In this document: positions 7,594 to 46,731 of the stretch, one piece after another
Layout: each line of letters starts with the position of its first letter
How positions within the stretch are numbered: position 1 is the stretch's first letter
Assembly (NCBI RefSeq): GCF_002161285.1
Contig: NZ_NFHH01000004.1
Coordinates: 62,001-126,000, forward strand
Source: Blautia sp. An81
GTDB lineage: Bacteria > Bacillota > Clostridia > Lachnospirales > Lachnospiraceae
Length of the DNA stretch: 64,000 bases
Direction: 5' to 3'
Notes under the pieces: generated by a model
What the model was told of the DNA's origin: nothing
The model's input: the letters and a program-made list of their open reading frames with translations, nothing else
Databases searched by the model: none
Position numbers and translations under genes: made by a program

Positions 7594-8445
7594 ATGAGTT
7601 TGGCAGACAAACTGTTTATTGATATGTGCCGGGATATTCTGGATAATGGTACAGATACAAAAGGAGAGAAGGTACGGCCTCATTGGGAGGATACCGGAGA
7701 GGCAGCCTATACCATCAAACGTTTTGGTGTGGTGAATCGTTATGACCTGAGAAAAGAGTTTCCAGCTTTGACTCTGCGGAAGACAGGGCTGAAAACCTGT
7801 ATGGACGAGATCCTCTGGATCTATCAGAGAAAATCCAACAATATCCACGATTTAAATGCCCATATCTGGGATGCCTGGGCAGACGAAGATGGCTCTATCG
7901 GTACCTGCTACGGAGATGTGGTGAGACGAAAATTCCTCTACAAAGGGGAAGAAGTAGACCAGATGGATTATGTGCTGAAGCAGCTGAAGGAGAATCCTTA
8001 CAGCAGGAGGATCATGACCAATCTGTATCAGTTTGAATATCTTCACAGCGGCGCCCTTGACCCATGCTGTTACAGTATGACCTATAATGTGACCAAGGAT
8101 AAAGATCAGGACAGACTGGTCCTGAACGGAGTGCTGAATCAGCGTTCTCAGGACGTGCTGGCGGCCAATAACTGGAATGTGTGCCAGTATGCTATCCTGC
8201 TTATGATGGTGGCTCAGGTTAATGACATGATTCCCGGAGAACTGGTCCATGTGATCGCCGACGCCCACATTTATGACAGGCATGTGCCGGTAATCGAGGA
8301 ACTGATCAGCAGAGAGACCTATCCTGCTCCAAAGGTTTACCTGAACCCTGAGATTAAAAACTTCTACGACTTTACTACAGCAGATCTGATCGTGGAAAAT
8401 TATCAGGCAGGGCCTCAGATTAAAAATATACCGATTGCGGTGTAA
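7594..8445 (+). CDS. thyA: Thymidylate synthase
   Basis: Converts dUMP and methylene-tetrahydrofolate to dTMP and dihydrofolate (283 aa). The nucleophile lies in DPCCYSMTYNV (about residues 158-168); the residue after the catalytic Cys is another Cys rather than the common His, in a sequence style closer to Bacillus subtilis ThyA than to the E. coli enzyme. dUMP-binding segments SRRIMTN, NQRSQDVL, NNWNVCQY and HIYDRH are present. AGAGAGGAG precedes the ATG. folA follows after 66 bp, the classical pairing that recycles dihydrofolate. Confidence 0.96.
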   Translation: MSLADKLFIDMCRDILDNGTDTKGEKVRPHWEDTGEAAYTIKRFGVVNRYDLRKEFPALTLRKTGLKTCMDEILWIYQRKSNNIHDLNAHIWDAWADEDGSIGTCYGDVVRRKFLYKGEEVDQMDYVLKQLKENPYSRRIMTNLYQFEYLHSGALDPCCYSMTYNVTKDKDQDRLVLNGVLNQRSQDVLAANNWNVCQYAILLMMVAQVNDMIPGELVHVIADAHIYDRHVPVIEELISRETYPAPKVYLNPEIKNFYDFTTADLIVENYQAGPQIKNIPIAV

Positions 8446-19823: not shown

Positions 19824-19869
19824 GACACCGTTGCCCCTCCTATATTGGCACAGGAAGGAGGGTTGTCAT

Positions 19870-19962
19870 ATGGGAGATTTTTTCATCACTTTTATTATCT
19901 CTGTTACGGCAGGTGTGGCTTGCCACCTCATCTGCAAATGGCTGGACAGAGATAAGAGGTAA
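19870..19962 (+). CDS. Small hydrophobic toxin, Fst-like (type I toxin-antitoxin)
   Basis: 30-residue peptide with one transmembrane helix (about residues 4-23, FFITFIISVTAGVACHLIC) followed by KWLD and a charged tail (RDKR). This is the layout of Fst/Ldr-type membrane toxins. The start is sound: AAGGAGGG is seven bases before ATG. It is in a non-coding context with two convergent promoters, a shared terminator and direct repeats, as in the par locus of plasmid pAD1. Overproduction of such peptides damages membranes; the natural role of chromosomal copies is unclear. Family assignment is by layout and short motif, not by a database search. Confidence 0.72.
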   Translation: MGDFFITFIISVTAGVACHLICKWLDRDKR

Positions 19963-20002
19963 AAGCAACCAGCCTAGGGCATAAGCCACCCTGCCAAAAC
20001 GG

Positions 20003-20079
20003 AATAGAAAACCCTGGAGACCGCCATCTCCAGGGTTTTCATTTTGCCATATGGGCTTGGGCTTTCATCACTTTTGCCT
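20003..20079 (-). ncRNA. Antisense antitoxin RNA (RNA II-like)
   Basis: Inferred transcript of about 75 nt from the minus promoter at 20086-20114 to the shared hairpin. Its 5' part is copied from DRb (CATATGGG at 20048-20055 and TTTCATCACTTTT at 20063-20075), which repeats the toxin start region DRa (19867-19874 and 19881-19893). It can therefore pair with the toxin initiation region in addition to the shared terminator. Confidence 0.6.
20007..20040. terminator. Bidirectional terminator shared by toxin and antitoxin RNAs
   Basis: A perfect 14-bp stem, GAAAACCCTGGAGA with TCTCCAGGGTTTTC, around a 6-nt loop, placed between the convergent promoters. Confidence 0.8.
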
Positions 20080-34687: not shown

Positions 34688-34732
34688 TATCCCCCTGCCG
34701 GGCTTGTAGGACTGTTAATTTTTTGATAAACT
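34688..34732 (+). promoter_or_regulatory. Shared operator/promoter, site a (aspartoacylase-methyltransferase gene)
   Basis: ATCCCC-N5-GGGCTTGT (34689-34707) overlaps the -35 box TTGTAG (34704-34709); after a 17-bp spacer comes TAAACT (34727-34732). The same arrangement occurs at 36679-36722 and 40967-41010. The leader to the ATG at 34841 is about 100 nt. It also holds AGGGGACAGTCCCT (near 34777) and a possible second promoter. Confidence 0.7.
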
Positions 34733-34840
34733 AACCCTCAGTATAGGAGGAGTGTCTGAACCTTTATACACAAAAGAGGGGACAGTCCCTTGCCAAAAAC
34801 TTGTATTACTTTAGGATAGAACAGAGATAAGGACGGAGAA

Positions 34841-36535
34841 ATGAGCGAAAACGGAATTTTTCAGTTAGGAACTTTCAGTGTAAGACCAGGAGAAAAAGCC
34901 AGTGGATTCCTGTCTGTGGCAGATGGAGAATTTCAGCTTCCTGTTACTATTTTAAACGGAGAAGAGCCGGGAAAGACGGTACTGATCACTGCGGGGATCC
35001 ATGCAGAAGAATATGTAGGGATCCAGGCGGCTGTAGAACTGGCCGACAGGCTGAAAACAGAAAAAATTGCAGGAACAGTAGTGATCGTAAAGGTTATCAA
35101 CCGGGAAGCTTTTGAAAACAGAAGCGGCAGTTTCGGATATGAGGACGGGAAGAATCTCAACCGGGTATTCCCTGGAAACAGGGAGGGAACCCAGATGGAG
35201 CGGCTGGCCTGGGGAATCGAAAAGGAACTTTTTCCTATAGCAGATTATTATATTGACCTTCACAGCGGAGACAGCTATGAACAGCTTGCCCCCTATGTGT
35301 ATTATGCAGGACAGGCTTCAGAAGAGACGGTAAAAATCTCCAGGGAGATGGCCCAGCAGGTGGACGTACCCTACATGGTCTGCTCTACAGTGGCCAAGGG
35401 AGGCTGTTATAACTATGCGGCTTACGCCTACGGGATCCCCAGTATTCTCATTGAAAGAGGAGGCATGGGAGCCTGGACCAGAGAGGAATCCCATTCTACA
35501 CGGAGGGACGTGCGGAATATCCTCTGCCATCTGGGGGTTTATCTGGGACAGAAAGACTATAGGATCTATTATCCTCTGGAAGTAAGGGACATTATTTACC
35601 AGTCTGCTTCCCAGAACGGCCTGTGGTATCCAAACAAAATGCCGGGAGATATGATCCGGGCAGGCGAGGTCCTGGGAATGGTCAAGGATTATCAGGGCCA
35701 TATTCTGGAAGTGGCTTATGGAGAAAACGATGGGGTGATCCTCTACCAGACAGGAAGTCTTCAGGTAGAAGAATCCGGCCCAATGATCGCCTATGGAAAG
35801 ATTTCCCGGGAGAAGGATAACCGGAAAGAGCGGATCACCAACTATTGGACAAAACGCAGCAGCGGCTTTAAGGAACAGAGGAAGGCGGAGCTCCATGATC
35901 CCATTGCCGAAAGATGGCAGGAAGAGATTGAAAAGTATCTTCCCCAGGGGAATCTGCGGATTCTGGACGTAGGCTGCGGCACAGGATTCTTTACGATTCT
36001 TTTGTCGAAAATGGGACACGAGGTTACAGGAACAGACCTGACTCCGGATATGATCCGCTATGCCAGAGAACTGGCGGAAGAAGAAAATGCCGGCTGTCAG
36101 TTTCTGATCATGGACGGGGAAAGTCTCGACTTTGAGGACGAGACTTTTGACGTTGTGATATCCAGAAACCTTACCTGGACTTTGCCGGATACGGCCAGGG
36201 CTTACAAAGACTGGCTGCGGGTGCTGAAAAAAGGCGGGATCCTGCTGAACTTTGATGCTAACTACGGGGCGGTAAATTTTGCAGATACTTCTAAACTTCC
36301 CAAAAACCATACCCACAATAAACTGGGACTGGATATGATGGCAGAATGTGAGGAGATTAAGCGCCAGCTTCCTATCAGCAGCCGTGTCCGTCCTGCCTGG
36401 GATGTGGAGACCCTGGGAAACCTGGGGGTGGAGCAGTTGTCTGTAGATTTCGGCGTCAGCAGGAAAATCTATACAGTAAAAGATGAATTTTATAATCCGG
36501 ATGCGCTGTTTGCCCTTTTTGCAGTAAAGGCATAA
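34841..36535 (+). CDS. Aspartoacylase/succinylglutamate-desuccinylase fused to a SAM methyltransferase
   Basis: 564-aa two-domain protein. Residues about 1-325 are an M14-type AstE/AspA zinc deacylase: ITAGIHAEEYVGIQAA supplies His and Glu ligands, DLHSGDS the third ligand, and ILIERGG the catalytic Glu. Residues about 340-564 are a class I methyltransferase: ILDVGCGTGFFTILLSKMG (SAM loop, about 377) and ISRNLTWTLPD. Methyltransferases with this last motif are often found beside Nik/Opp-type transporters (my recollection). It lies upstream of two such operons and shares their operator, so it may modify the transported ligand or a metal chelator (inference). The fusion junction shows no frameshift. 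Confidence 0.85.
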   Translation: MSENGIFQLGTFSVRPGEKASGFLSVADGEFQLPVTILNGEEPGKTVLITAGIHAEEYVGIQAAVELADRLKTEKIAGTVVIVKVINREAFENRSGSFGYEDGKNLNRVFPGNREGTQMERLAWGIEKELFPIADYYIDLHSGDSYEQLAPYVYYAGQASEETVKISREMAQQVDVPYMVCSTVAKGGCYNYAAYAYGIPSILIERGGMGAWTREESHSTRRDVRNILCHLGVYLGQKDYRIYYPLEVRDIIYQSASQNGLWYPNKMPGDMIRAGEVLGMVKDYQGHILEVAYGENDGVILYQTGSLQVEESGPMIAYGKISREKDNRKERITNYWTKRSSGFKEQRKAELHDPIAERWQEEIEKYLPQGNLRILDVGCGTGFFTILLSKMGHEVTGTDLTPDMIRYARELAEEENAGCQFLIMDGESLDFEDETFDVVISRNLTWTLPDTARAYKDWLRVLKKGGILLNFDANYGAVNFADTSKLPKNHTHNKLGLDMMAECEEIKRQLPISSRVRPAWDVETLGNLGVEQLSVDFGVSRKIYTVKDEFYNPDALFALFAVKA

Positions 36536-36556
36536 ATGAAAAAACTGAGCATCTTA

Positions 36557-36591
36557 ACGGGGGGATGGGGTTATCTCCCCGTATTTTTTTT
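36557..36591 (+). terminator. Terminator after the deacylase-methyltransferase gene
   Basis: ACGGGGGGAT with ATCTCCCCGT, 6-nt loop, then an A and T8. Confidence 0.85.
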
Positions 36592-36678
36592 GCCTGAAAG
36601 AAAAGAGAATAGAGAAAAAAGCCGGGATTTCAGGGATCTGCAGGCAGGACCGGACAGACACAAAAAACTGAAAAACGG

Positions 36679-36722
36679 AACCCCTGCCCGGGCTTGTGGC
36701 GAAAAAAAGCAGATGCTATACT
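36679..36722 (+). promoter_or_regulatory. Shared operator/promoter, site b (first ABC operon)
   Basis: AACCCC-N5-GGGCTTGT (36679-36697) overlaps TTGTGG (36694-36699); 17-bp spacer; TATACT (36717-36722). The start codon is 34 bp downstream. Confidence 0.78.
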
Positions 36723-36755
36723 CCTTCCATACTTAAGAAAGCGAGGAGAAAATGT

Positions 36756-38102
36756 ATGAAAAAGAAACTCATTGCTGCTTTATGCACCCTTGCTGTAAGT
36801 GTCGGACTTTTGTCAGGCTGCAGTCAGGGGGCTGAATCAGATGCTGGAAGGGAGACATCTGCACAGGAAGAAACAGCCGGAGGTGCAGCAGAGGAGAATA
36901 CACAGAAGGAAGAAGTAGTGGTTACTATGCCCGCAACTTCAGAACCGGAATCCGGCTTTGACCCGGCTTTTGGCTGGGGGGCCGGAGAACACGTTCACGA
37001 ACCTCTGATCCAGAGTACGCTGACGGTTACTACCCAGGATCTGCAGATGGATAAGGATCTGGCCACAGATTACAGTGTCAGCGAAGATGGTATGACCTGG
37101 ACAGTGACCATCCGGGACGATGTAAAATTTACAGACGGGGAGCCCCTTACCGCCCGGGATGCAGCCTTTACTTACAATAACTGTAAAGAAAAAAGTTCAG
37201 TAAATGACTTTACCATGCTGGAAGAAGCTGTGGCCGTAGACGATACTACAGTAGAGTTCCATATGACCAGGCCCTATTCCATCTGGCCTTATACCATGGC
37301 TATCGTAGGAATCGTTCCGGAACATGCCTATGATGAAAATTATGGACAGAACCCCATAGGTTCTGGCCGTTACATCATGAAGCAGTGGGACAAAGGACAG
37401 CAGGTGATTTTTGAGGAAAATCCAGATTATTACGGAGAGGAGCCGAAGATCAAAAAGCTGACAGTTCTCTTTATGGAGGAAGACGCAGCCCTGGCTGCGG
37501 CTATGGCCGGAGAGGTAGACGTAGCCCATACGGCGGCTTCTTACAGCGACCAGAGCGTGGAGGGATATGAGCTTTTCAGTGTGCAGACCGTAGATAACAG
37601 AGGTTTTAACCTGCCATGCAGTACGCCTCAGGAAAAAGACGGCGTTACCTATGGAAATGAATTTACCTCAGATGTAAATGTAAGAAGAGCCATCAATATC
37701 GGCATTGACCGCCAGGAGATGATAGACAATGTATTAAACGGCTATGGAACCGCTGCCTATAGTGTATGCGACAAGATGCCCTGGTATAATCCGGAAAGCG
37801 AAGTAGAATATGACCCGGAAGAAGCAAAGAAGATCTTAGAGGACGCCGGCTGGAAGAAAGGTACTGACGGAATCCGCAAGAAGGATGGAGTAAGGGCGGA
37901 ATTCACTCTGATGTTCAGCAATGGAGATTCTGTACGCCAGGCTTTGGCGGAAGATACGGCCAATCAGCTCCGGGAACTGGGAATTGAAGTGACCACCGAA
38001 GGAGCAGGCTGGGATGTGGCTTATGACCGGGCAGAATCAGAGCCTCTTATGTGGGGCTGGGGAGCCCATACGCCTATGGAACTTTATAATATTTACCATA
38101 CC
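36756..38102 (+). pseudogene. Nik/Dpp-type substrate-binding lipoprotein, C-terminus deleted
   Basis: Family 5 solute-binding lipoprotein with lipobox LLSGC (Cys about residue 22). About 448 residues are homologous in style up to TPMELYNIYHT; then the frame runs out of phase into permease DNA and stops at 38177. Compared with the 529-aa paralogue at 44456, about 100 C-terminal residues are missing, including part of lobe I. The likely ligand class is peptide, nickel or a metal chelate. The ATG at 36756 follows GCGAGGAG. The junction is near 38097-38105. It may be translated but should not be a working binding protein. Confidence 0.82.
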
Positions 38103-38760
38103 CTGGGTGATTTCCGGGATCCTGGGCCTTTTTCTGGGTGTAGTGGCAGGTATGAACCGGGGGAAACTGATAGATAAAGCAATCCAGGGATACTGTCTGG
38201 TGATTTCCAGTACGCCGGCATTCTGGCTGGCGCTGCTGCTCCTGCTTGTTTTCGGAGTATGGCTTCGTCTGTTTCCCATTGGCCTCAGCGTGCCTATCGG
38301 AGTGGAAGCCAGCGGAGTGACCCTGGCAGACCGGATCTATCATGCCATACTCCCGGCGCTGACCTTAAGCATTACAGGTGTCTCCAACATCGCCCTGCAC
38401 ACCCGGGAAAAAATGGCGGATATCATGGAAAGCGATTATGTTTTGTTTGCCAGGATGCGGGGGGAGAAAGGATGGCGCCTGTTTAAATATTACGGGTTCC
38501 GGAACGTGCTCCTGCCTGCCATTACCCTCCAGTTTGCCTCCATCAGTGAGATATTCGGAGGCTCTGTGCTTGTGGAACAGGTATTTTCCTATCCGGGTCT
38601 GGGACAGGCGGCGGTAGCTGCCGGCCTTGGGAGCGATATGCCTCTGCTGATGGCGATTACCATTGTCAGCGCCCTTTTTGTCTTTGGAGGAAACCTGGCG
38701 GCCAATATACTTTACGGACTTATTGATCCCAGGATCCGGAGAGGGGGTAAGGTAAAATGA
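38103..38760 (+). pseudogene. Nik/Dpp-type permease (NikB/DppB), N-terminus deleted
   Basis: In-frame from IPWVISGILGLFLG to the normal C-terminus LIDPRIRRGGK, with the EAA-loop region (SDYVLFARMRGEKGW) intact. The first about 100 residues, including TM1 and the periplasmic loop, are absent: the DNA before 38103 is binding-protein sequence read in another frame. The apparent start at 38014 is therefore false. The stop overlaps the next start (ATGA). Together with the preceding gene this shows a single deletion of roughly 0.6 kb. Confidence 0.82.
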
Positions 38761-39383
38761 AGATGTGGAACCGGAGACAGAGAATTCTGATAGGACTGGG
38801 CTTTTCTGTTGTTTTTCTGGCAGTAATCTGCATATGGGGAAGCATGAGCACAGAAGAAGCCAGGGTGACAGATTTTTCCAGGAAGAATATAGCCCCCTGC
38901 CTGGAATATATTTTCGGCACCGACTGGCTGGGAAGGGATATGCTGGCAAGGACGCTGAAAGGCGTGGTCATAGGCGTGGCCCTTACACACTGGCCTTCCC
39001 TGGCCAGACTGATACGGGCGGAAGTGATCCAGCTCAGGGAGAGCCCTTATATCCAGATTTCCCGCAAACTGGGGAAGAGCAGCTGGTATATTGCCAGGAA
39101 ACATATGCTGCCTCATCTTGTGCCTCAGTTTATCGTAGGCCTGGCACTGATGTTTCCCCATGCGATCCTTCATGAGTCCAGCATTACTTTTCTGGGATTC
39201 GGCCTGTCTACGGAGCAGCCGGCCATTGGTATCGTACTTTCAGAGGCCATGCAGTACCTGATCACAGGAAAATGGTGGCTGGCTTTATTTCCCGGGCTTT
39301 TGCTGGTATTTACCGTGGTACTATTCTATATCCTGGGAGAGAGCCTGAGGAAAATGCTGGATCCCGGAAGTATCCATCAGTAA
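38757..39383 (+). pseudogene. Nik/Dpp-type permease (NikC/DppC) with internal in-frame deletion
   Basis: 208-aa product, about 70-75 residues shorter than the family. The normal start (one TM helix, then YIFGTDWLGRDMLARTLKG) jumps directly to VVIGVALTHWPSLARLIRAE, so the stretch that should hold the second and third helices is missing; the junction is near 38955-38965. The EAA loop (SPYIQISRKLGKSSWYIARKH) and C-terminus are present. A functional pore is unlikely. This is a second lesion, independent of the one at 38.1 kb. Confidence 0.75.
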
Positions 39384-39404
39384 AGAAGCCAGGAGGAGAA
39401 AAGC

Positions 39405-40322
39405 ATGGAAAAAGAGACAGTCCTGAAAATCGAACATATGAATATTGTTTTTACCCAGTATGACAGAGGAATGCATCAGACAGAACTCCCGGTCATCCGG
39501 AACCTGGACGTAGAAGTCCGAAGAGGAGAAGTGGTAGCGGTGGTAGGCTCCAGCGGATCCGGGAAAAGTCTCCTGGCCCATGGGGTAATGGGAGTTCTGC
39601 CCTATAACGCCCGTATGGGAGGAGATATCCAGTATCTGGGAGAGAAACTTACCAAAGAAAGGATAGAAAAACTCAGAGGAAAGGAAATCGTTATGGTACC
39701 CCAGAGCATTTCTTCCCTGAATCCCCTGATGAAGATCGGACCTCAGATACGGAAAGGGAAAAAAGATCCGGCGTCCCAAGAGAAGCTGAAAGCTATTTTC
39801 AGACGTTACGATCTGGAAGAAAAGACAGAGGAGCTTTATCCTTTTGAGCTGTCCGGAGGGATGAACCGGAGAGTGCTGATCTCTACGGCAGTGATGGAAG
39901 AACCCAGACTGGTCATCGCTGACGAACCTACTCCGGGTCTGGATAAGAAAACAGCAAAACGTGCCATGGAACATTTCCGAAATCTGGCGGACATGGGCGC
40001 TGCCGTTCTGGTGATCACCCATGATCTGGAACTGGCTCTGGAGACCGTGGACCGGATTGCGGTATTTTACGGGGGAACCACTATTGAGGAGGCCAGGGCA
40101 GAAGACTTCCAGAGAGAAGAGAACCTTCGGCACCCCTATACGAAAGCCTTATGGAGGGCTATGCCCAGGCATGGATTTCAATATATTGAAGGAAGCCAGC
40201 CTTATGTGAAAAACCTTCCCAAAGGGTGTATCTTCAGCCCCAGGTGCAGCCAGTGCCAGGAGGCCTGCAGAGGAGAAATCCCCTACCGGGAAGTAAGAGG
40301 CGGAAAGGTGGAAATAAGATGA
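39405..40322 (+). CDS. ABC transporter ATPase (DppD/NikD type)
   Basis: 305-aa ATPase of the peptide/nickel importer group. Walker A GSSGSGKS (about residues 45-52), signature LSGGMNRR (about 158), Walker B LVIADEPT (about 173-180), switch His in VITHDLE, and the C-terminal oligopeptide-type Cys motif CIFSPRCSQCQEAC. All motifs are intact although its two permease partners are truncated. AGGAGG precedes ATG. It may now be orphaned or could serve the second operon (inference). Confidence 0.88.
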   Translation: MEKETVLKIEHMNIVFTQYDRGMHQTELPVIRNLDVEVRRGEVVAVVGSSGSGKSLLAHGVMGVLPYNARMGGDIQYLGEKLTKERIEKLRGKEIVMVPQSISSLNPLMKIGPQIRKGKKDPASQEKLKAIFRRYDLEEKTEELYPFELSGGMNRRVLISTAVMEEPRLVIADEPTPGLDKKTAKRAMEHFRNLADMGAAVLVITHDLELALETVDRIAVFYGGTTIEEARAEDFQREENLRHPYTKALWRAMPRHGFQYIEGSQPYVKNLPKGCIFSPRCSQCQEACRGEIPYREVRGGKVEIR

Positions 40323-40957
40323 AACTGGAAGTCAAGAATCTTTCTTATCAATATACAAAGAAAGGGAGAAAAATCCTGAAGGACTTCAGCCTGACTGTAG
40401 AAAACACAGAGCGGGTAGGGCTGGCCGCACCAAGCGGATATGGGAAAACCACTTTGTGCAAGCTTCTTTCCGGATACCTGGAGCCGGATCAGGGGGAAAT
40501 CCTTCTGGACGGAAAGCCTATATCCTCCTATGGAGGCTACTGTCCGGTGCAGATGATCTGGCAGCAGCCGGAGTTTGCCCTGAATCCCAGACTGCGGGTC
40601 AAAGAAGCCATCCGGGAGGGAGATCAGATAGAAGAAAGAATCCTTCGGGAACTTGGGATAGAAGAAGACTGGATGAATCGTTTCCCTGCAGAATTGTCCG
40701 GGGGAGAGCTGCAGCGGTTCAGTATTGCCAGGGCCCTGGGAAAGAGGACCAGATTTTTGCTGGCGGATGAGATCACGACTATGCTGGACCTGATCACCCA
40801 GAGTCAGATATGGCACTTTTTGCTGAAAGAGGCAGAGAAGCGGAAAATCGGACTGATCGTAGTCAGCCACGATTCGGAACTGCTGGACCGGGTATGTACC
40901 AGGATCATACCTCTGGAAGAGGAAAAGGGAGAACAAAGTGGGCAGGCCCCCTCTTAA
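40319..40957 (+). CDS. ABC transporter ATPase (DppF/NikE type)
   Basis: 212-aa ATPase. Walker A APSGYGKT (about residues 34-41), Q-loop IWQQPEFALNP, signature LSGGELQRF (about 129), Walker B FLLADEITTM (the usual P after E is replaced by Ile), and VVSHDSE. The start overlaps the previous stop (ATGA at 40319-40322), so translation is coupled. It is last in the decayed operon. It is shorter than typical DppF because the C-terminal Cys-rich extension is absent. Confidence 0.85.
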   Translation: MKLEVKNLSYQYTKKGRKILKDFSLTVENTERVGLAAPSGYGKTTLCKLLSGYLEPDQGEILLDGKPISSYGGYCPVQMIWQQPEFALNPRLRVKEAIREGDQIEERILRELGIEEDWMNRFPAELSGGELQRFSIARALGKRTRFLLADEITTMLDLITQSQIWHFLLKEAEKRKIGLIVVSHDSELLDRVCTRIIPLEEEKGEQSGQAPS

Positions 40958-40965
40958 ATAAAAAA

Positions 40966-41010
40966 CAACCCCCCATGGGGCTTGTGAGAATTTTTTGAAG
41001 GTTTTATACT
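40966..41010 (+). promoter_or_regulatory. Shared operator/promoter, site c (second ABC operon)
   Basis: ACAACCCC-N5-GGGCTTGT overlaps TTGTGA (40982-40987); 17-bp spacer; TATACT (41005-41010). This copy is the most symmetric: the left half ACAACCCC mirrors GGGCTTGT with one mismatch. Confidence 0.8.
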
Positions 41011-41050: not shown

Positions 41051-41995
41051 ATGAAAAAATACGCAATAAGACGATTTATACAATTAATCCCGATTCTCCT
41101 GGGCATTACCCTGCTGTCCTTCATTCTGACGAATATAGGTACTACAGACGTGATCGATACCATGGAAAGCAATCAGGGCGTGGTCATGTCAGAAGAAGAA
41201 AAAGATCAGCTCCGCCAGGAGATTGGCCTGGACAAGCCTCTGGCTCAGCAGTATGTTATCTGGCTGGGTAATGTACTGAGAGGAGATATGGGAGAATCTT
41301 TTGTATCCGGGAAAGATGTATTCGACACATTTATATCAAAACTTCCGGCGACGATCTACCTGACGGTCACGTCCATCTTTCTGACCGTATTAATCTCTAT
41401 ACCTCTGGGAATCCTGTCAGCAGTAAAACAAAATAAATTTCTGGATTATCTGATACGGTTTTTGAGTTTCATCGGGAATTCCCTGCCGAACTTTTTTGTG
41501 TCTCTGCTGCTGATCTATTTCTTTTCCCTGAAGTTGAAGCTCCTTCCTGTAATGGGAAATAACAGCGGATGGAAAAGCATTATCCTTCCAACCCTGACTC
41601 TTGCCATAGCCATGTCCTCCAAATATACCCGGCAGGTAAGAGCCACGGTTCTGGAAGAATTGAACAAGGACTATGTGCAGGGCGCCAGAGCACGGGGGAT
41701 CCGTGAGAATAAGATATTGACTTTCAGTGTGCTGAAAGCCTCCATGCTCACTATCGTTACCCTGCTGGCCCTGTCCATCGGATCCCTTCTGGGAGGAACG
41801 GCCATTGTAGAATCCATCTTTATGTGGGACGGGGTGGGGAAAATGGCGGTAGACGCCATCACCATGAGGGATTATCCCATCATACAGGCCTACGTGATCT
41901 GGATGGCGGTCATTTATGTGGTAGTGAATCTGATCACAGATCTGATCTATCATTATCTTGATCCAAGGATCCGTCTGGGACAGGAGGAAGCATAG
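41051..41995 (+). CDS. ABC transporter permease (NikB/DppB type)
   Basis: 314-aa permease, full length with six helices; TM1 at residues 9-29, large periplasmic loop with LDKPLAQQYVIWLGNVLRGDMGESF, EAA loop near KDYVQGARARGIRENK (about 208-223), C-terminus HYLDPRIRLG. It is the intact counterpart of the broken permease at 38103. First gene of a five-gene operon starting 41 bp after the -10 box of site c. Confidence 0.92.
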   Translation: MKKYAIRRFIQLIPILLGITLLSFILTNIGTTDVIDTMESNQGVVMSEEEKDQLRQEIGLDKPLAQQYVIWLGNVLRGDMGESFVSGKDVFDTFISKLPATIYLTVTSIFLTVLISIPLGILSAVKQNKFLDYLIRFLSFIGNSLPNFFVSLLLIYFFSLKLKLLPVMGNNSGWKSIILPTLTLAIAMSSKYTRQVRATVLEELNKDYVQGARARGIRENKILTFSVLKASMLTIVTLLALSIGSLLGGTAIVESIFMWDGVGKMAVDAITMRDYPIIQAYVIWMAVIYVVVNLITDLIYHYLDPRIRLGQEEA

Positions 41996-42861
41996 TGGAA
42001 GAAAAGAAGATTACTGTAAGAAAACAGAAAATAAAAAAAGACTATACAAAGATAAAACTGGCCGTTTACGGCGCATTGACTCTTCTGCTCATTCTGGTGG
42101 CAGTCTTTGCGCCTTATATAACGCCCTATGATCCTTATGAACAGGACCTTGGCAATGCCCTTCTGGCTCCATGCAGGGAATATCTGCTGGGGACAGACCG
42201 GTACGGAAGAGATATGCTCTCCAGGGTGATCATGGGAGCCAGATCCTCTATTTCTTCAGCGGTGCTTCTGGTGGTGATCATCACAGTTGCAGGAAGCATC
42301 GTGGGGATTCTCTGCGGCTACTGCCAGGGAAAGCTGGATTCCTTTCTCATGCGTCTCTCAGATATTTTCCTGGCCTTTCCGGGAATGGTCTTTGCCATTG
42401 CCGCAGCCAGTGTCATGAGCGGAGGCATCATGAACGCCGTAGCAGCCCTGGCCTTTATATCCTGGCCAAAATATGCAAGGATTGCCAGAAGTCAGGTGCT
42501 GACTATAAAGAATGCGCCCTATATTTCGGCGGCCCGGCTGGCAGGTTCCGGGACAGGGAAGATCATCTTAAAACATATTGTCCCCAATATCGCCGGTCCG
42601 GTGATCGTAACGGCGGTTCTGGATATCGGGACCATGATGATGGAAATCGCCGGACTGTCGTTTCTGGGTCTGGGAGCTACGCCGCCTACTGCAGAGTGGG
42701 GTTCCATGATGAGCAATGGAAGAAGTATGCTCCAGACGTCTCCATGGGTGATCCTGGCTCCCGGCTGCGCTATTTTTCTTACGGTTATGGTCTTTAACCT
42801 TCTGGGAGATACCGTAAGGGATATATTAGATCCCAGACAGAGCAGGAGGAACAGATCATGA
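41995..42861 (+). CDS. ABC transporter permease (NikC/DppC type)
   Basis: 288-aa permease, full length. An N-terminal helix (about 20-42) is followed by YLLGTDRYGRDMLSRVIMGARSSI, the standard periplasmic motif, and an EAA loop around NAPYISAARLAGSGTGKII (about 184-202). The GTG start shares one base with the previous TAG stop (41993-41995), and the next gene overlaps by ATGA, so the three genes are translationally coupled. Comparison with this gene shows what is missing in 38757-39383. Confidence 0.92.
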   Translation: MEEKKITVRKQKIKKDYTKIKLAVYGALTLLLILVAVFAPYITPYDPYEQDLGNALLAPCREYLLGTDRYGRDMLSRVIMGARSSISSAVLLVVIITVAGSIVGILCGYCQGKLDSFLMRLSDIFLAFPGMVFAIAAASVMSGGIMNAVAALAFISWPKYARIARSQVLTIKNAPYISAARLAGSGTGKIILKHIVPNIAGPVIVTAVLDIGTMMMEIAGLSFLGLGATPPTAEWGSMMSNGRSMLQTSPWVILAPGCAIFLTVMVFNLLGDTVRDILDPRQSRRNRS

Positions 42862-43643
42862 CACAGCCATTATTAGATATGCAGCATGTAGACATCAGTT
42901 ACGGAGGAAAGCCGGTAGTCCAGGATCTGTCTCTTCAGATGGCACCAGGAGAGATCCTTGGAATAGTAGGAGAATCCGGCAGCGGAAAAAGCACGGTGCT
43001 CAAGGCGGCTATGGGGCTGCTGGAAAACTCCGGAGCCGTGACCAGAGGCGATATTTACTATAAAGGACAGAATGTCACCGACAGCAGAGAAAATGAACTC
43101 CGAAAGCTCCGGGGACCTGAAATGGGCATGATTTTTCAGAACACAGGGGCCTCCATGTGCCCGATCCGGACCATTGAGGACCAGCTTTATGAAAGTGTTC
43201 TGGAACATGAAAAGATCAGCCGTAAAGAGATTAAAGAAAGGGCCCTGAAATTATTTGAGACTATGCGTCTTACAGACGGAGAAAGAATCCTGAAAAGTTA
43301 TCCCTTTGAACTGTCAGGAGGAATGAATCAGAGAGTGGGGATCATGATGGCCATGGTGCCAAATCCCCGGCTTCTGTTGGCCGATGAGCCTACCAGTGCC
43401 CTGGACGTTACTGTCCAGGCCCAGGTGGTGAAAGAGATGATGAAAATGCGGGAGCTCTATGGGACAGCCATTGCCATTGTTACCCATAACATCGGCGTTG
43501 TAGAATATATGGCGGATAAAGTGGCTGTCATGTATCAGGGAAAGCTGGTAGAATACGGCAGGAAAGAAGATGTGATCCGCCATCCCCGGGAACCCTATAC
43601 CAGGAAGCTTATCGGTGCGGTTCCCCGGCTGGACAGAGGATAA
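42858..43643 (+). CDS. ABC transporter ATPase (NikD/DppD type)
   Basis: 261-aa ATPase: Walker A GESGSGKS (about residues 37-44), Q-loop MIFQNTGASMCPI, signature LSGGMNQRV (about 150), Walker B LLLADEPTSALD, switch His VTHNIG, and an HPREPYTRKLIGAVP tail typical of peptide/nickel ATPases. Overlaps the permease stop by 4 bp. It energises import with the next gene product. Confidence 0.92.
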   Translation: MTQPLLDMQHVDISYGGKPVVQDLSLQMAPGEILGIVGESGSGKSTVLKAAMGLLENSGAVTRGDIYYKGQNVTDSRENELRKLRGPEMGMIFQNTGASMCPIRTIEDQLYESVLEHEKISRKEIKERALKLFETMRLTDGERILKSYPFELSGGMNQRVGIMMAMVPNPRLLLADEPTSALDVTVQAQVVKEMMKMRELYGTAIAIVTHNIGVVEYMADKVAVMYQGKLVEYGRKEDVIRHPREPYTRKLIGAVPRLDRG

Positions 43644-43647
43644 AGCT

Positions 43648-44403
43648 ATGGAAAAAATATTGGAAGTAACAAATCTGAAAAAAACATTTTATAAGAATAA
43701 AACGCCCTTTACAGCAGTAAATGAGATCAGCTTTACTCTGAACAGAGGCGAATGTCTGGGGCTTGTAGGAGAAAGCGGATGCGGAAAAAGTACTACAGCA
43801 AAGATGATCACCCGGCTTTTGGAGCCGGACAGCGGCAGTATCCGTCTGGACGGAGAGGAAATCCTGGGACAGAAAGGGAAAAAGAAAAAAGAACTGTATA
43901 CAAAGATGCAGATGATTTTCCAGATTCCCCAGGATTCCTTTGATCCCCGCTGTACTTTGGGAGACGGGATCATGGAGAGCATGCGCAATCACGGCATGAA
44001 ACGGAAAGACGCCAGAAAAAGGATGTATGAGCTTCTGGAACTGGCAGAACTGGACAAAAGTTTTGTTTCCAGATATCCCCATGAGGTAAGCGGCGGGCAG
44101 TGTCAGAGAGCGGCCATAGCCAGAGCTCTGGCTGTAGATCCCAGGATTCTGATCTGTGATGAGGCTACCAGCGCTTTGGACGTTACCATACAGGCCCAGA
44201 TTATGGATCTGCTCAGCAGACTTCAGAGAGATAGAGGACTGTCTATCCTTCTGATCTGTCATGACCTGGCTCTGGTGCAGAAGCTCTGCCAGAGAGTCCT
44301 GGTGATGTATAAAGGCAGTATTATAGAAACGGGTATGACAGATGAGGTGATACGGCATCCCAGGGAAGAATATACAAAGAGCCTTATAGATTCTGTATTT
44401 TAA
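43648..44403 (+). CDS. ABC transporter ATPase (NikE/DppF type)
   Basis: 251-aa ATPase: Walker A GESGCGKST (about residues 38-46), Q-loop MIFQIPQDSFDPR, signature VSGGQCQRA (about 147), Walker B ILICDEATSALD, ICHDLAL, and HPREEYTKSLI tail. The start at 43648 is 4 bp after the previous stop; the longer frame from 43615 overlaps that gene and has no ribosome site. Confidence 0.92.
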   Translation: MEKILEVTNLKKTFYKNKTPFTAVNEISFTLNRGECLGLVGESGCGKSTTAKMITRLLEPDSGSIRLDGEEILGQKGKKKKELYTKMQMIFQIPQDSFDPRCTLGDGIMESMRNHGMKRKDARKRMYELLELAELDKSFVSRYPHEVSGGQCQRAAIARALAVDPRILICDEATSALDVTIQAQIMDLLSRLQRDRGLSILLICHDLALVQKLCQRVLVMYKGSIIETGMTDEVIRHPREEYTKSLIDSVF

Positions 44404-44455
44404 AGTCCAAAGTTTTGCAAAAATCAGCGGAAGGATTATCAGGAAAGGAGAAAAA

Positions 44456-46045
44456 ATGAAACCAAAAAACATATGGAAAAAGGCGTGGGGTGCTGTTCTG
44501 GCGCTGACTATGAGCGCCGGACTGCTGGCAGGCTGCGGTTCTTCCGGGGAGGAGGACAGCCAGGATAGATCACAGTCTGAGTCCTCTTCAGGAGAAAAAG
44601 TTTTTTATTACGGAGACACCACTTTTAATGCGGAAAATGACGAGTCTGATGTGAACCCTCACAACGGATATTCAGGCTGGGCCTGTATCCGCTATGGCAT
44701 AGGGGAAACCTTATTCCGCTATTCCGATACCATGGAGCTGGAGCCCTGGCTGGCCACAGAATATGAGAATGTAGATGAAAATACCTGGAGGATTACCCTG
44801 AGAGACGGGGTAACCTTCACCAGCGGCAGGGAACTGGATGCCCAGGCCGTGAAGGAATGCCTGGAGCATCTGGTGGAGGTTCATGAGAGAGCTAAAGGGA
44901 ATCTGAAGATCCAGGAGATCACAGCAGACGGGATGACTCTGACTATCAGGACTACGGAGCCGGTACCGGCCCTGATGAATTATCTGGCCGATCCCTACGG
45001 CTGCATTATTGATATGGAAGCCGGCATTACTGATGACGGAAACGTAGTGGGCACCGGTCCATATATTGCCACAGAAGTGGTTACAGATCAGGGACTGACT
45101 TTGGTAAAAAATGAAAATTACTGGGATGGGATGCCGAATCTGGACACCATATATGTACAGACCATCAGTGATGGAGATACCCTTACTATGGCTCTTCAGT
45201 CAGGAGAGCTGGATGCGGCTTACGGTCTTCCTTACTCCAGTTTGTCCCTGTTCTCAGAAGAGCCCTATACGATTTCTTCTGTAGAAACCTCCAGATCTTT
45301 CTTTGCACAGATGAATTATGCCACAGAGGCTCTCCAGGACGAAAGAGTAAGAGAAGCCATTGCCTGCGGCATTGACAAAGAAAGCTTTACAGAGGTACTG
45401 ATGGAAGGCAACGGTTCCGCCGCTGTAGGCCCTTTCCCGTCAAACTTTACTTTTGGGGACGATGCAGTTACCGCACCGGAATATGATCCGGACAGGGCTA
45501 AAGAACTTCTGGCGGAAGCAGGATGGACAGATACGGACGGAGACGGTTATGTGGACAAGGACGGAGAGAACCTGACTATTCGCTGGCTTACTTATCCCAG
45601 CCGTCAGGAACTGCCCCTTCTGGCAGAAAGCGTTCAGGCAACTCTGGGAGAGATTGGCATTGACGTTGAAGTAAACAGTACGGCAAATCATCTGGATGTT
45701 ATTGAAACCGGCGAGTGGGACATCTACGCCAGTGCCTTTGTCTGCGCACCTACAGGAGATCCGGAATACTTCTTTACCACCCACTGCCTGGATTCTTCCA
45801 CCCACAACAGAGGGGGATATCACAGTGACAGACTGGAAGAGCTGGAAGCCCAGATGAGCACTACTTTTGACGCAGAAGAGAGAGCTTCTCTGGCTGTGGA
45901 AATGACTCAGACGATTCTGGACGACAATGCTTTTATCTTTGCTTCCCATCTGCGGATGTCTATTGTTTCAGGAGAAGGGGTCACAGGTCTGGAGGCTCAT
46001 CCCTGTGACTATTATGAGATAACTGTGGATCTGGATAAAAATTAA
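44456..46045 (+). CDS. Nik/Dpp-type substrate-binding lipoprotein
   Basis: 529-aa family 5 solute-binding lipoprotein. Signal peptide with lipobox LLAGC (Cys about residue 25), a Ser/Glu-rich tether, then the binding domain (ETLFRYSDTMELEPWLATEYENV, YDPDRAKELLAEAGWTD). The layout and the short flexible loops recall NikA/CntA proteins, which bind nickel as a chelate; a peptide ligand is also possible. It is the last gene of the intact operon, 52 bp after the ATPase, with AGGAAAGGAG before ATG. Confidence 0.9.
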   Translation: MKPKNIWKKAWGAVLALTMSAGLLAGCGSSGEEDSQDRSQSESSSGEKVFYYGDTTFNAENDESDVNPHNGYSGWACIRYGIGETLFRYSDTMELEPWLATEYENVDENTWRITLRDGVTFTSGRELDAQAVKECLEHLVEVHERAKGNLKIQEITADGMTLTIRTTEPVPALMNYLADPYGCIIDMEAGITDDGNVVGTGPYIATEVVTDQGLTLVKNENYWDGMPNLDTIYVQTISDGDTLTMALQSGELDAAYGLPYSSLSLFSEEPYTISSVETSRSFFAQMNYATEALQDERVREAIACGIDKESFTEVLMEGNGSAAVGPFPSNFTFGDDAVTAPEYDPDRAKELLAEAGWTDTDGDGYVDKDGENLTIRWLTYPSRQELPLLAESVQATLGEIGIDVEVNSTANHLDVIETGEWDIYASAFVCAPTGDPEYFFTTHCLDSSTHNRGGYHSDRLEELEAQMSTTFDAEERASLAVEMTQTILDDNAFIFASHLRMSIVSGEGVTGLEAHPCDYYEITVDLDKN

Positions 46046-46059
46046 AAGGGGCTAATCAT

Positions 46060-46731
46060 ATGTACCGTATATTTATCATAGAAGATGATCCGGGGATCGC
46101 CCGGGGGATCCAGAAGCAGATGGAGTCCTGGAACCTGGAAGCCCGGTGTGCCTCAGATTTTGAAAAGATCATGGAGGAATTTTCTGACTATCACCCTCAT
46201 CTGGTCCTGCTGGATATTTCTCTGCCTTTTTACAATGGCTATTACTGGTGCCAGGAGATCCGGAAGATTTCCCGGGTGCCGGTGATCTTTATCTCTTCCG
46301 CCTCAGATAACATGAATATTGTTATGGCCATGCAGATGGGCGGGGATGACTTTATTGCCAAGCCTTTTGACCAGATGGTGATGACCGCCAAGATCCAGGC
46401 TGTGCTGAGGAGAACTTATGACTACGGAGGAGAGCAGGCTTTTCTGGAACATAAAGGCGCTGTTTTAAATATGGCAGACGCTTCTCTATCCTATGAAGGG
46501 GAAAAGATCGATCTGACAAAAAACGAGTACCGGATCCTTCAGACCCTTCTGGAAAACAAGGGAAAGATCATCAGTCGGGAGCGGCTTATGGAGAAACTCT
46601 GGGAAAGCGACAGTTTTGTAGATGAAAATACTTTAAGCGTGAATGTAAACCGTCTGCGGAAAAAGCTGGAGAAGGCAGGCCTGACAGATTTTATTACCAC
46701 CAAAATTGGCATGGGGTATCTGATCGGATAA
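46060..46731 (+). CDS. bceR: OmpR-family response regulator, BceR type
   Basis: 223-aa response regulator. Receiver domain 1-118 with acidic EDD (9-11), phospho-Asp in LVLLDISLP (about 52) and Lys in AKPFD (about 103); DNA-binding winged helix about 125-223 (LTKNEYRILQTLLEN, VDENTLSVNVNRLRKKL). It sits 14 bp after the binding-protein gene and 10 bp before its kinase. Regulators of this kind activate Bce-type transporters on sensing peptide antibiotics; a matching operator lies at 47720-47756. Confidence 0.93.
   Translation: MYRIFIIEDDPGIARGIQKQMESWNLEARCASDFEKIMEEFSDYHPHLVLLDISLPFYNGYYWCQEIRKISRVPVIFISSASDNMNIVMAMQMGGDDFIAKPFDQMVMTAKIQAVLRRTYDYGGEQAFLEHKGAVLNMADASLSYEGEKIDLTKNEYRILQTLLENKGKIISRERLMEKLWESDSFVDENTLSVNVNRLRKKLEKAGLTDFITTKIGMGYLIG

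Follow-up and report, generated by a model that had tools for sequence, protein, structure and literature searches.

We analyzed a 64,000-nucleotide stretch of the Blautia sp. An81 genome (contig NZ_NFHH01000004.1, positions 62,001 to 126,000), referred to here as the window, in which an earlier note based on the letters alone had proposed that three promoters share one operator and are controlled by a common repressor. The sites and the genes behind them are arranged as follows (window coordinates).

34688..34707, + strand: operator 1, TATCCCCCTGCCGGGCTTGT, the final four bases of which open the −35 box TTGTAG (34704-34709)
34727..34732, + strand: −10 box of the operator 1 promoter, TAAACT, 17-bp spacer from the −35 box
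34841..36535, + strand: deacylase (AstE/AspA type) fused to a class I methyltransferase (Pfam PF24827, 98.3 bits; PF08241, 91.6 bits)
36678..36697, + strand: operator 2, GAACCCCTGCCCGGGCTTGT, with −35 box TTGTGG (36694-36699)
36717..36722, + strand: −10 box of the operator 2 promoter, TATACT, 17-bp spacer
36756..40957, + strand: importer operon A (binding protein, two permeases, two ATPases; Pfam), internally deleted here
40966..40985, + strand: operator 3, CAACCCCCCATGGGGCTTGT, with −35 box TTGTGA (40982-40987)
41005..41010, + strand: −10 box of the operator 3 promoter, TATACT, 17-bp spacer
41051..46045, + strand: importer operon B (Pfam), with permeases at 41051-41995 and 41995-42861, ATPases at 42858-43643 and 43615-44403, and a binding protein at 44456-46045

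Within the window, CCCC-N5-GGGCTTGT starts at 34691, 36681, and 40969, and the operator overlaps the −35 box at all three sites. The positions, the TTGTRR boxes, the exact 17-bp spacers, and the TAAACT or TATACT boxes are as the earlier note had described them, and the gene and Pfam map agrees with its placement of the sites ahead of the deacylase-methyltransferase gene and both importer operons. The ACAA left arm given in its title is found at operator 3 only, the other two sites having ATAT (operator 1) and GGAA (operator 2). An Rfam scan of the window returned a T-box, a transfer RNA, and a borderline small RNA, with no match at the operator sites.

The motif is rare in the genome and conserved across the family

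The genome-wide motif scan proposed in the earlier note was run on the whole assembly (G000; 4,315,088 bases in 82 contigs), with the reversed pattern as a control. The 11 specified bases of CCCN5GGGCTTGT (CCC-N5-GGGCTTGT) had four exact matches, and the reversed control had none. When the motif was joined to the −10 box (16 specified bases), the window's three sites were the only matches in the genome at zero, one, or two mismatches; at three mismatches, 18 further matches appeared, with 26 in total for the reversed control. The fourth exact site (G000:C1:237752; locus L001) lies upstream of a gene for a 251-amino-acid methyltransferase, with a TATACT box at an 18-bp spacer, and the gene divergent from it is presumably luxS. 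This site is a further member of the same set and not an unrelated promoter. The earlier note had allowed that the motif might be frequent in unrelated promoters, and this was not what we found, the sole other exact site preceding another methyltransferase gene.

Blautia relatives (L025-L030) carry these sites ahead of the same genes wherever the contig extends far enough, and the deacylase-methyltransferase gene is among those kept downstream. Exact matches to the 11-base motif numbered 42 in 20 genomes of the genus, compared with seven for the reversed control. We then searched 397 genomes of the family (334 genera) for the motif plus −10 box with at most one mismatch and recovered 63 sites in 49 genomes versus six for the reversed control. 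On the basis of BLAST labels and reading, 47 of these sites, in 37 genomes, were classified as linked sites, that is, upstream of importer, methyltransferase, or CsoR/RcnR-family genes, and 16 were not, a split that was our own choice after seeing the data. Linked targets comprised Nik/Dpp-type importers, NikM-type and Fec-type transporters, methyltransferases (alone or deacylase-fused), DJ-1-like genes at the front of or next to Nik or CsoR genes, and CsoR-family genes. The 42 distinct linked sites had the consensus TA[T/A]CCCCC-N3-GGGCTTGT, with a conserved left arm, TA[T/A]CCCCC; the bases just before CCC, which were not part of the search, were A in 95%, T or A in 100%, and C in 100% of the sites. 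A class-level sample (383 genomes, at most two mismatches) gave matches in 23 genomes and four control matches. Five of the 12 class-level loci that we read fit the pattern, all from families other than that of Blautia: Two have NikM-like genes, two have genes with weak matches to methyltransferases, and in the last, a His-rich protein precedes a binding protein.

The distance from site to −10 box was assessed in a scan that did not require a −10 box, which covered the window, L001, L025-L030, L039, and 20 genus regions and yielded 33 distinct sites. Where the downstream gene was of the Nik, methyltransferase, or deacylase type, a −10-like hexamer stood 17 or 18 bp away, although some of these sites have an equal or better match to TATAAT elsewhere; most other matches had no such hexamer at 17 or 18 bp. 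In a looser scan, which dropped TTGT and sought only the C/G-tract dyad, these gene types again had this geometry upstream; the exceptions stood ahead of csoR in L263 and ahead of a CsoR-containing operon in L257.

A candidate regulator of the InrS-like clade

The earlier note had seen no obvious regulator gene adjacent to the sites. This is correct, and the candidate lies on another contig. The genome has three PF02583 genes, two of which have neighbors that we take to be a copper ATPase and an iron-only hydrogenase. The third, on contig 9 (G000:C9, ~477-827; locus L103), scores 100.6 bits against a cut-off of 22.8; its product has a His-rich N-terminus (HSHSHTHTHT) and is a relative of the operator-linked CsoR-family genes. 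The best solved-structure matches of the candidate were 6ahx and InrS (5fmn, E 8.9e-22). A review gives the nickel ligands of InrS as His21, Cys53, His78, and Cys82 (PMC7055735). The Cys, His, and Cys ligands are aligned in the contig-9 protein, and the Glu aligned with InrS Glu98 is kept; which of its N-terminal His residues is equivalent to His21 is not fixed by the alignment.

We used the 82-amino-acid core of the contig-9 protein as a query over the same 397 family genomes. It had a match in 299 of them at 1e-12, and a clade defined by a best E ≤ 1e-20, a cut-off picked after seeing the data, was present in 121. All 37 genomes with linked sites carried the clade, versus 84 of the 360 others (Fisher p 9.6e-22), as did 40 of the 49 motif genomes (Fisher p 2.5e-15) and three of the 12 with other sites only, counts in which the genomes are related and not independent. 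Twelve genomes have a clade gene inside a site-bearing operon or divergent from one: G195, G179, G148, G347, G203, G338, G238, G227, G321, G292, G036, and G098. In a FastTree phylogeny of 85 clade sequences plus outgroups, nickel-linked members were scattered through the clade.

Because of the rarity of the motif in the genome, its conservation in the family, the 37/37 co-occurrence with the clade, and the linkage of clade genes to the same transporter types, we consider it very probable that the motif is the docking site of an InrS-like CsoR/RcnR-family nickel sensor encoded on contig 9 and that the four promoters form its regulon. The common regulator and regulon of the earlier note are thus well supported. 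This degree of confidence applies to the regulator and the regulon, and not to the sign of control.

Nickel as the putative signal

Gene context points to nickel. In genome G050, a clade gene lies beside a CO (carbon monoxide) dehydrogenase gene (TIGR01702, 657.6 vs. cut-off 478) and a gene that we take to encode acetyl-CoA synthase. Clade genes also stand beside NikM/Q/O-type genes in G036, G011, and G098, and beside Nik-type genes for ATP-binding cassette (ABC) transporters. The NuoB-like and antiporter-like genes found next to other clade genes may be a membrane hydrogenase. In the window, the first permease of operon B (41051-41995) passes the NCBIfam model NF045470, "nickel ABC transporter permease" (374.5 vs. 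350). The context supports reading the targets as nickel/cobalt importers rather than peptide importers, and we infer that the contig-9 protein binds the operator with nickel as its ligand.

A search found no NikR, the textbook nickel regulator, in the Blautia genome and a weak match in two of the 397 family genomes, and NikR was therefore rejected as the regulator. We take the results together to mean that a NikR-independent nickel-uptake regulon probably operates in this bacterium and many relatives. A 2009 survey detected NikR in fewer than half of the organisms with NikABCDE and inferred NikR-independent control (PMC2667541). Among the matches listed in a search of the open-access literature, no paper dealt with a nickel-uptake regulon of the CsoR/RcnR type from Lachnospiraceae or Clostridia; subscription papers were mostly outside its scope.

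Several observations weigh against an InrS-like nickel regulon, in addition to the post hoc choices and the relatedness of genomes stated above. The short motif alone loses its distinctiveness once mismatches are allowed, with six matches in the window versus 4.9 expected at two mismatches and 60 versus 39 in the genome at one mismatch. Some BLAST labels behind the linked sites are weak (24%–29% identity; G118, G169:C116, G261:C18). Sixteen of the 63 family sites are not upstream of an importer, methyltransferase, or CsoR-family gene (G106, G061, G306, G152, G191, G163, G316:C112, G214:C61, G284, G155, G147, G369, G281:C8, G310:C1b, G258, and G202), and several of these are terminator look-alikes. 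Among the 12 class-level loci, five do not fit, and two, which have a membrane protein and come from the family of Blautia itself, are unassigned. The dyad in L257 stands at a different distance from its −10-like hexamer. At this stringency, 84 genomes carry the clade without having a linked site, and nine of the 49 motif genomes lack it at E 1e-20, of which G281 and G369 are near the cut-off. No operator was found upstream of the contig-9 regulator gene or at the scanned Pseudobutyrivibrio loci with the same transporter-methyltransferase operon. Finally, the first permease of operon B is the only window protein that passes a curated nickel cut-off.

One-mismatch matches include an unrelated tandem array: 18 of the 60 lie at G000:C77:14191-17054 as near-identical copies in two blocks, with a spacing of ~71–77 bp.

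Activation or repression

Overlap with the −35 box is the usual position of a repressor, and class II activators sit near −41.5 over a weak −35 box. Assuming a transcription start 7 nt after the −10 box, the dyad is centered near −41.5. Of the common repressor proposed in the earlier note, the shared regulator stands; that it represses is not established, given this center and the reported enhancement of nickel-import genes by InrS, the closest studied relative. We lean toward the metal-free protein acting as an activator, rather than nickel acting as a co-repressor, at roughly even confidence, because of the center near −41.5, the InrS precedent at nik, and two csoR-transporter operons. The metal-free protein, centered at about −41.5 and covering the edge of the weak −35 box, would activate, and nickel would release it from the operator. 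This form of control would keep the ligand-releases-DNA behavior reported for relatives and would resemble InrS at the cyanobacterial nik operon. The regulon as a whole is expected to express its uptake genes under nickel scarcity and to shut them off when nickel is abundant, which is the job of NikR elsewhere.

The opposite sign, with the same regulator and regulon, is a serious contender that we rate as somewhat less likely: The nickel-bound form would bind DNA and repress over the −35 box, in the manner of NikR or Fur and with inverted allostery. The −35 overlap at all three window sites agrees with it, as do two palindromes elsewhere in the family. In G340 (L263 ~8295-8320, − strand), a perfect C6/G6 palindrome with TATA-like ends covers the predicted start and ribosome-binding site of csoR, and G161 (L326) has a like arrangement upstream of csoR; the bound form should therefore repress there. 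In G340, csoR is followed on its 3′ side by an EamA-family gene (PF00892), and G161 has a second gene judged by eye only to be of EamA type. If the EamA protein exports nickel, then the palindrome would indicate apo-binding. Co-repression is disfavored by the behavior of relatives, in which ligand weakens DNA binding: Nickel does so in RcnR (PMC7055735), and metals are reported to do so for InrS at nrsD. The Glu aligned with InrS Glu98, a residue that couples metal to DNA binding, is kept, and the center near −41.5 together with the almost fixed 17/18-bp geometry suits an activator.

Other metals, other regulators, and chance

It is unlikely, in our judgment, that cobalt or some other metal is the signal for the clade member and that the importers carry cobalt or a non-nickel metal chelate. 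The NikM-like targets score best on cobalt CbiM models, all below cut-off, and the Fec-type targets resemble B12/siderophore permeases; moreover, according to the review, metal choice in the family is not fixed by sequence alone (PMC7055735). The aligned InrS ligand set, the CO dehydrogenase neighbor, the HypB gene after the Pseudobutyrivibrio methyltransferases, and the nickel permease model passed by operon B all argue for nickel.

Binding of the motif by some other regulator, such as a LysR-type protein or the response regulator behind operon B, appears improbable. Candidates exist in a response-regulator gene at 46060-46731, a LysR gene 3′ of the L039 methyltransferases, and another LysR gene inside the L172 operon. 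In the site-bearing loci that we read, however, neither type recurs as the CsoR-family gene does, and we rejected the response regulator and the L039 LysR gene as the common regulator on this ground; in addition, the operator layout matches CsoR type 2, and the 37/37 co-occurrence is with the CsoR/RcnR clade.

A terminator function, or an origin as chance G/C-rich repeats, without a common regulator is very improbable for the inverted repeats, and we rejected this reading. Some family matches are indeed terminator-like (GGGCTTTTTTT), and the excess vanishes once the short motif may mismatch, but the exact motif is found four times versus none in the genome and 63 times versus six in the family, the unselected flank is conserved, and the distance to the −10 box is near-fixed.

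Relation to known systems

As published, CsoR type 2 operators are ~21 nt long and consist of two C/G tracts with an N5 spacer and A/T-rich ends (PMC3902906). The layout here is the same as in the copper-responsive operators of Streptomyces lividans, with two differences: The right end is CTTGT, shared with the −35 box, instead of a symmetric TATAT, and the targets are importers and not copper efflux genes. By layout, the putative operator matches a CsoR/RcnR-type G/C-tract pseudopalindrome.

InrS of Synechocystis and the contig-9 protein have in common the PF02583 fold family, a His-rich N-terminal part, and the aligned Cys/His/Cys. According to the review, InrS represses the efflux gene nrsD, and in an organism that has no nikR, it also binds upstream of nik and enhances import genes (PMC7055735). 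The Blautia genome likewise lacks nikR, but here every one of the four exact sites stands before an importer or a methyltransferase gene. No exact operator was found before an efflux gene in this genome, a search that would miss divergent operators. NikR regulons share NikABCDE- and NikMQO-type importers as targets with the regulon described here; they differ in their regulator, which is absent from the Blautia genome and weakly matched in two genomes of the family.

A broader scenario, which we offer tentatively and hold to be possible rather than likely, is that, across Lachnospiraceae, a CsoR/RcnR sensor replaced NikR for uptake, as an apo class II activator or with nickel as co-repressor, and that its regulon includes a methyltransferase/deacylase route for an unrecognized nickel chelator. 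With this analysis, a large gut-bacterial family, some members of which have the nickel enzyme CO dehydrogenase, gains a candidate regulator, a sharply defined operator, and a regulon that can be tested. The finding offers a natural test of one metalloregulator fold serving uptake instead of efflux and ties uncharacterized methyltransferases and a deacylase to nickel acquisition.

Genes behind the operators

Three operon B subunits were run against NCBIfam (one permease, one ATPase, and the binding protein); the binding protein falls under its nickel cut-off (363.5 vs. 600), as does the ATPase at 42858-43643. All four operon A proteins that were run score under the NCBIfam nickel cut-offs (e.g., 170.2 vs. 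393 for the nikA model). Relative to L157 and L028, operon A has two deletions. The first (38102-38104) lacks ~665 bp, comprising the end of the binding protein and the start of the first permease, and the second (38945-38963) lacks ~199 bp of the second permease, at a 19-bp repeat. The operator and promoter upstream of the deleted operon are intact. In L025, ~2.1 kb of the same operon is absent.

Methyltransferase genes share operons with Nik-type transporters at three Pseudobutyrivibrio loci, in Mesosutterella, and in others (L031, L036, L038, L040), and in Pseudobutyrivibrio, a HypB gene lies 3′ of them (225.6 vs. cut-off 121.2). The Staphylococcus methyltransferases are not in an operon with Nik-type transporters. 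It is possible that the methyltransferases and the deacylase belong to a nickel-chelator pathway. The deacylase domain in the window is closest to the N-acetyl-diaminobutanoate deacetylase DoeB, far under cut-off (106.3 vs. 402.7).

Other genes recur at these loci. DJ-1/PfpI-like genes occur first in, or elsewhere within, Nik or csoR operons that lie behind the operator (L148, L153, L173, L147). A small conserved gene (75–97 amino acids) lies upstream of csoR in Blautia and relatives (L225 69-362; L141 7747-7977; L229; L238), the L141 copy having no Pfam match, and in G202 it follows a site by itself. In L357, from another Clostridia family, the site is followed by a 121-amino-acid His-rich small protein and then by a binding-protein gene, presumably of the peptide/nickel type. 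Away from the operators, the borderline Rfam match in the window (19824-20050) is to the Streptococcus small RNA SpF66 (42.3 vs. 42 bits).

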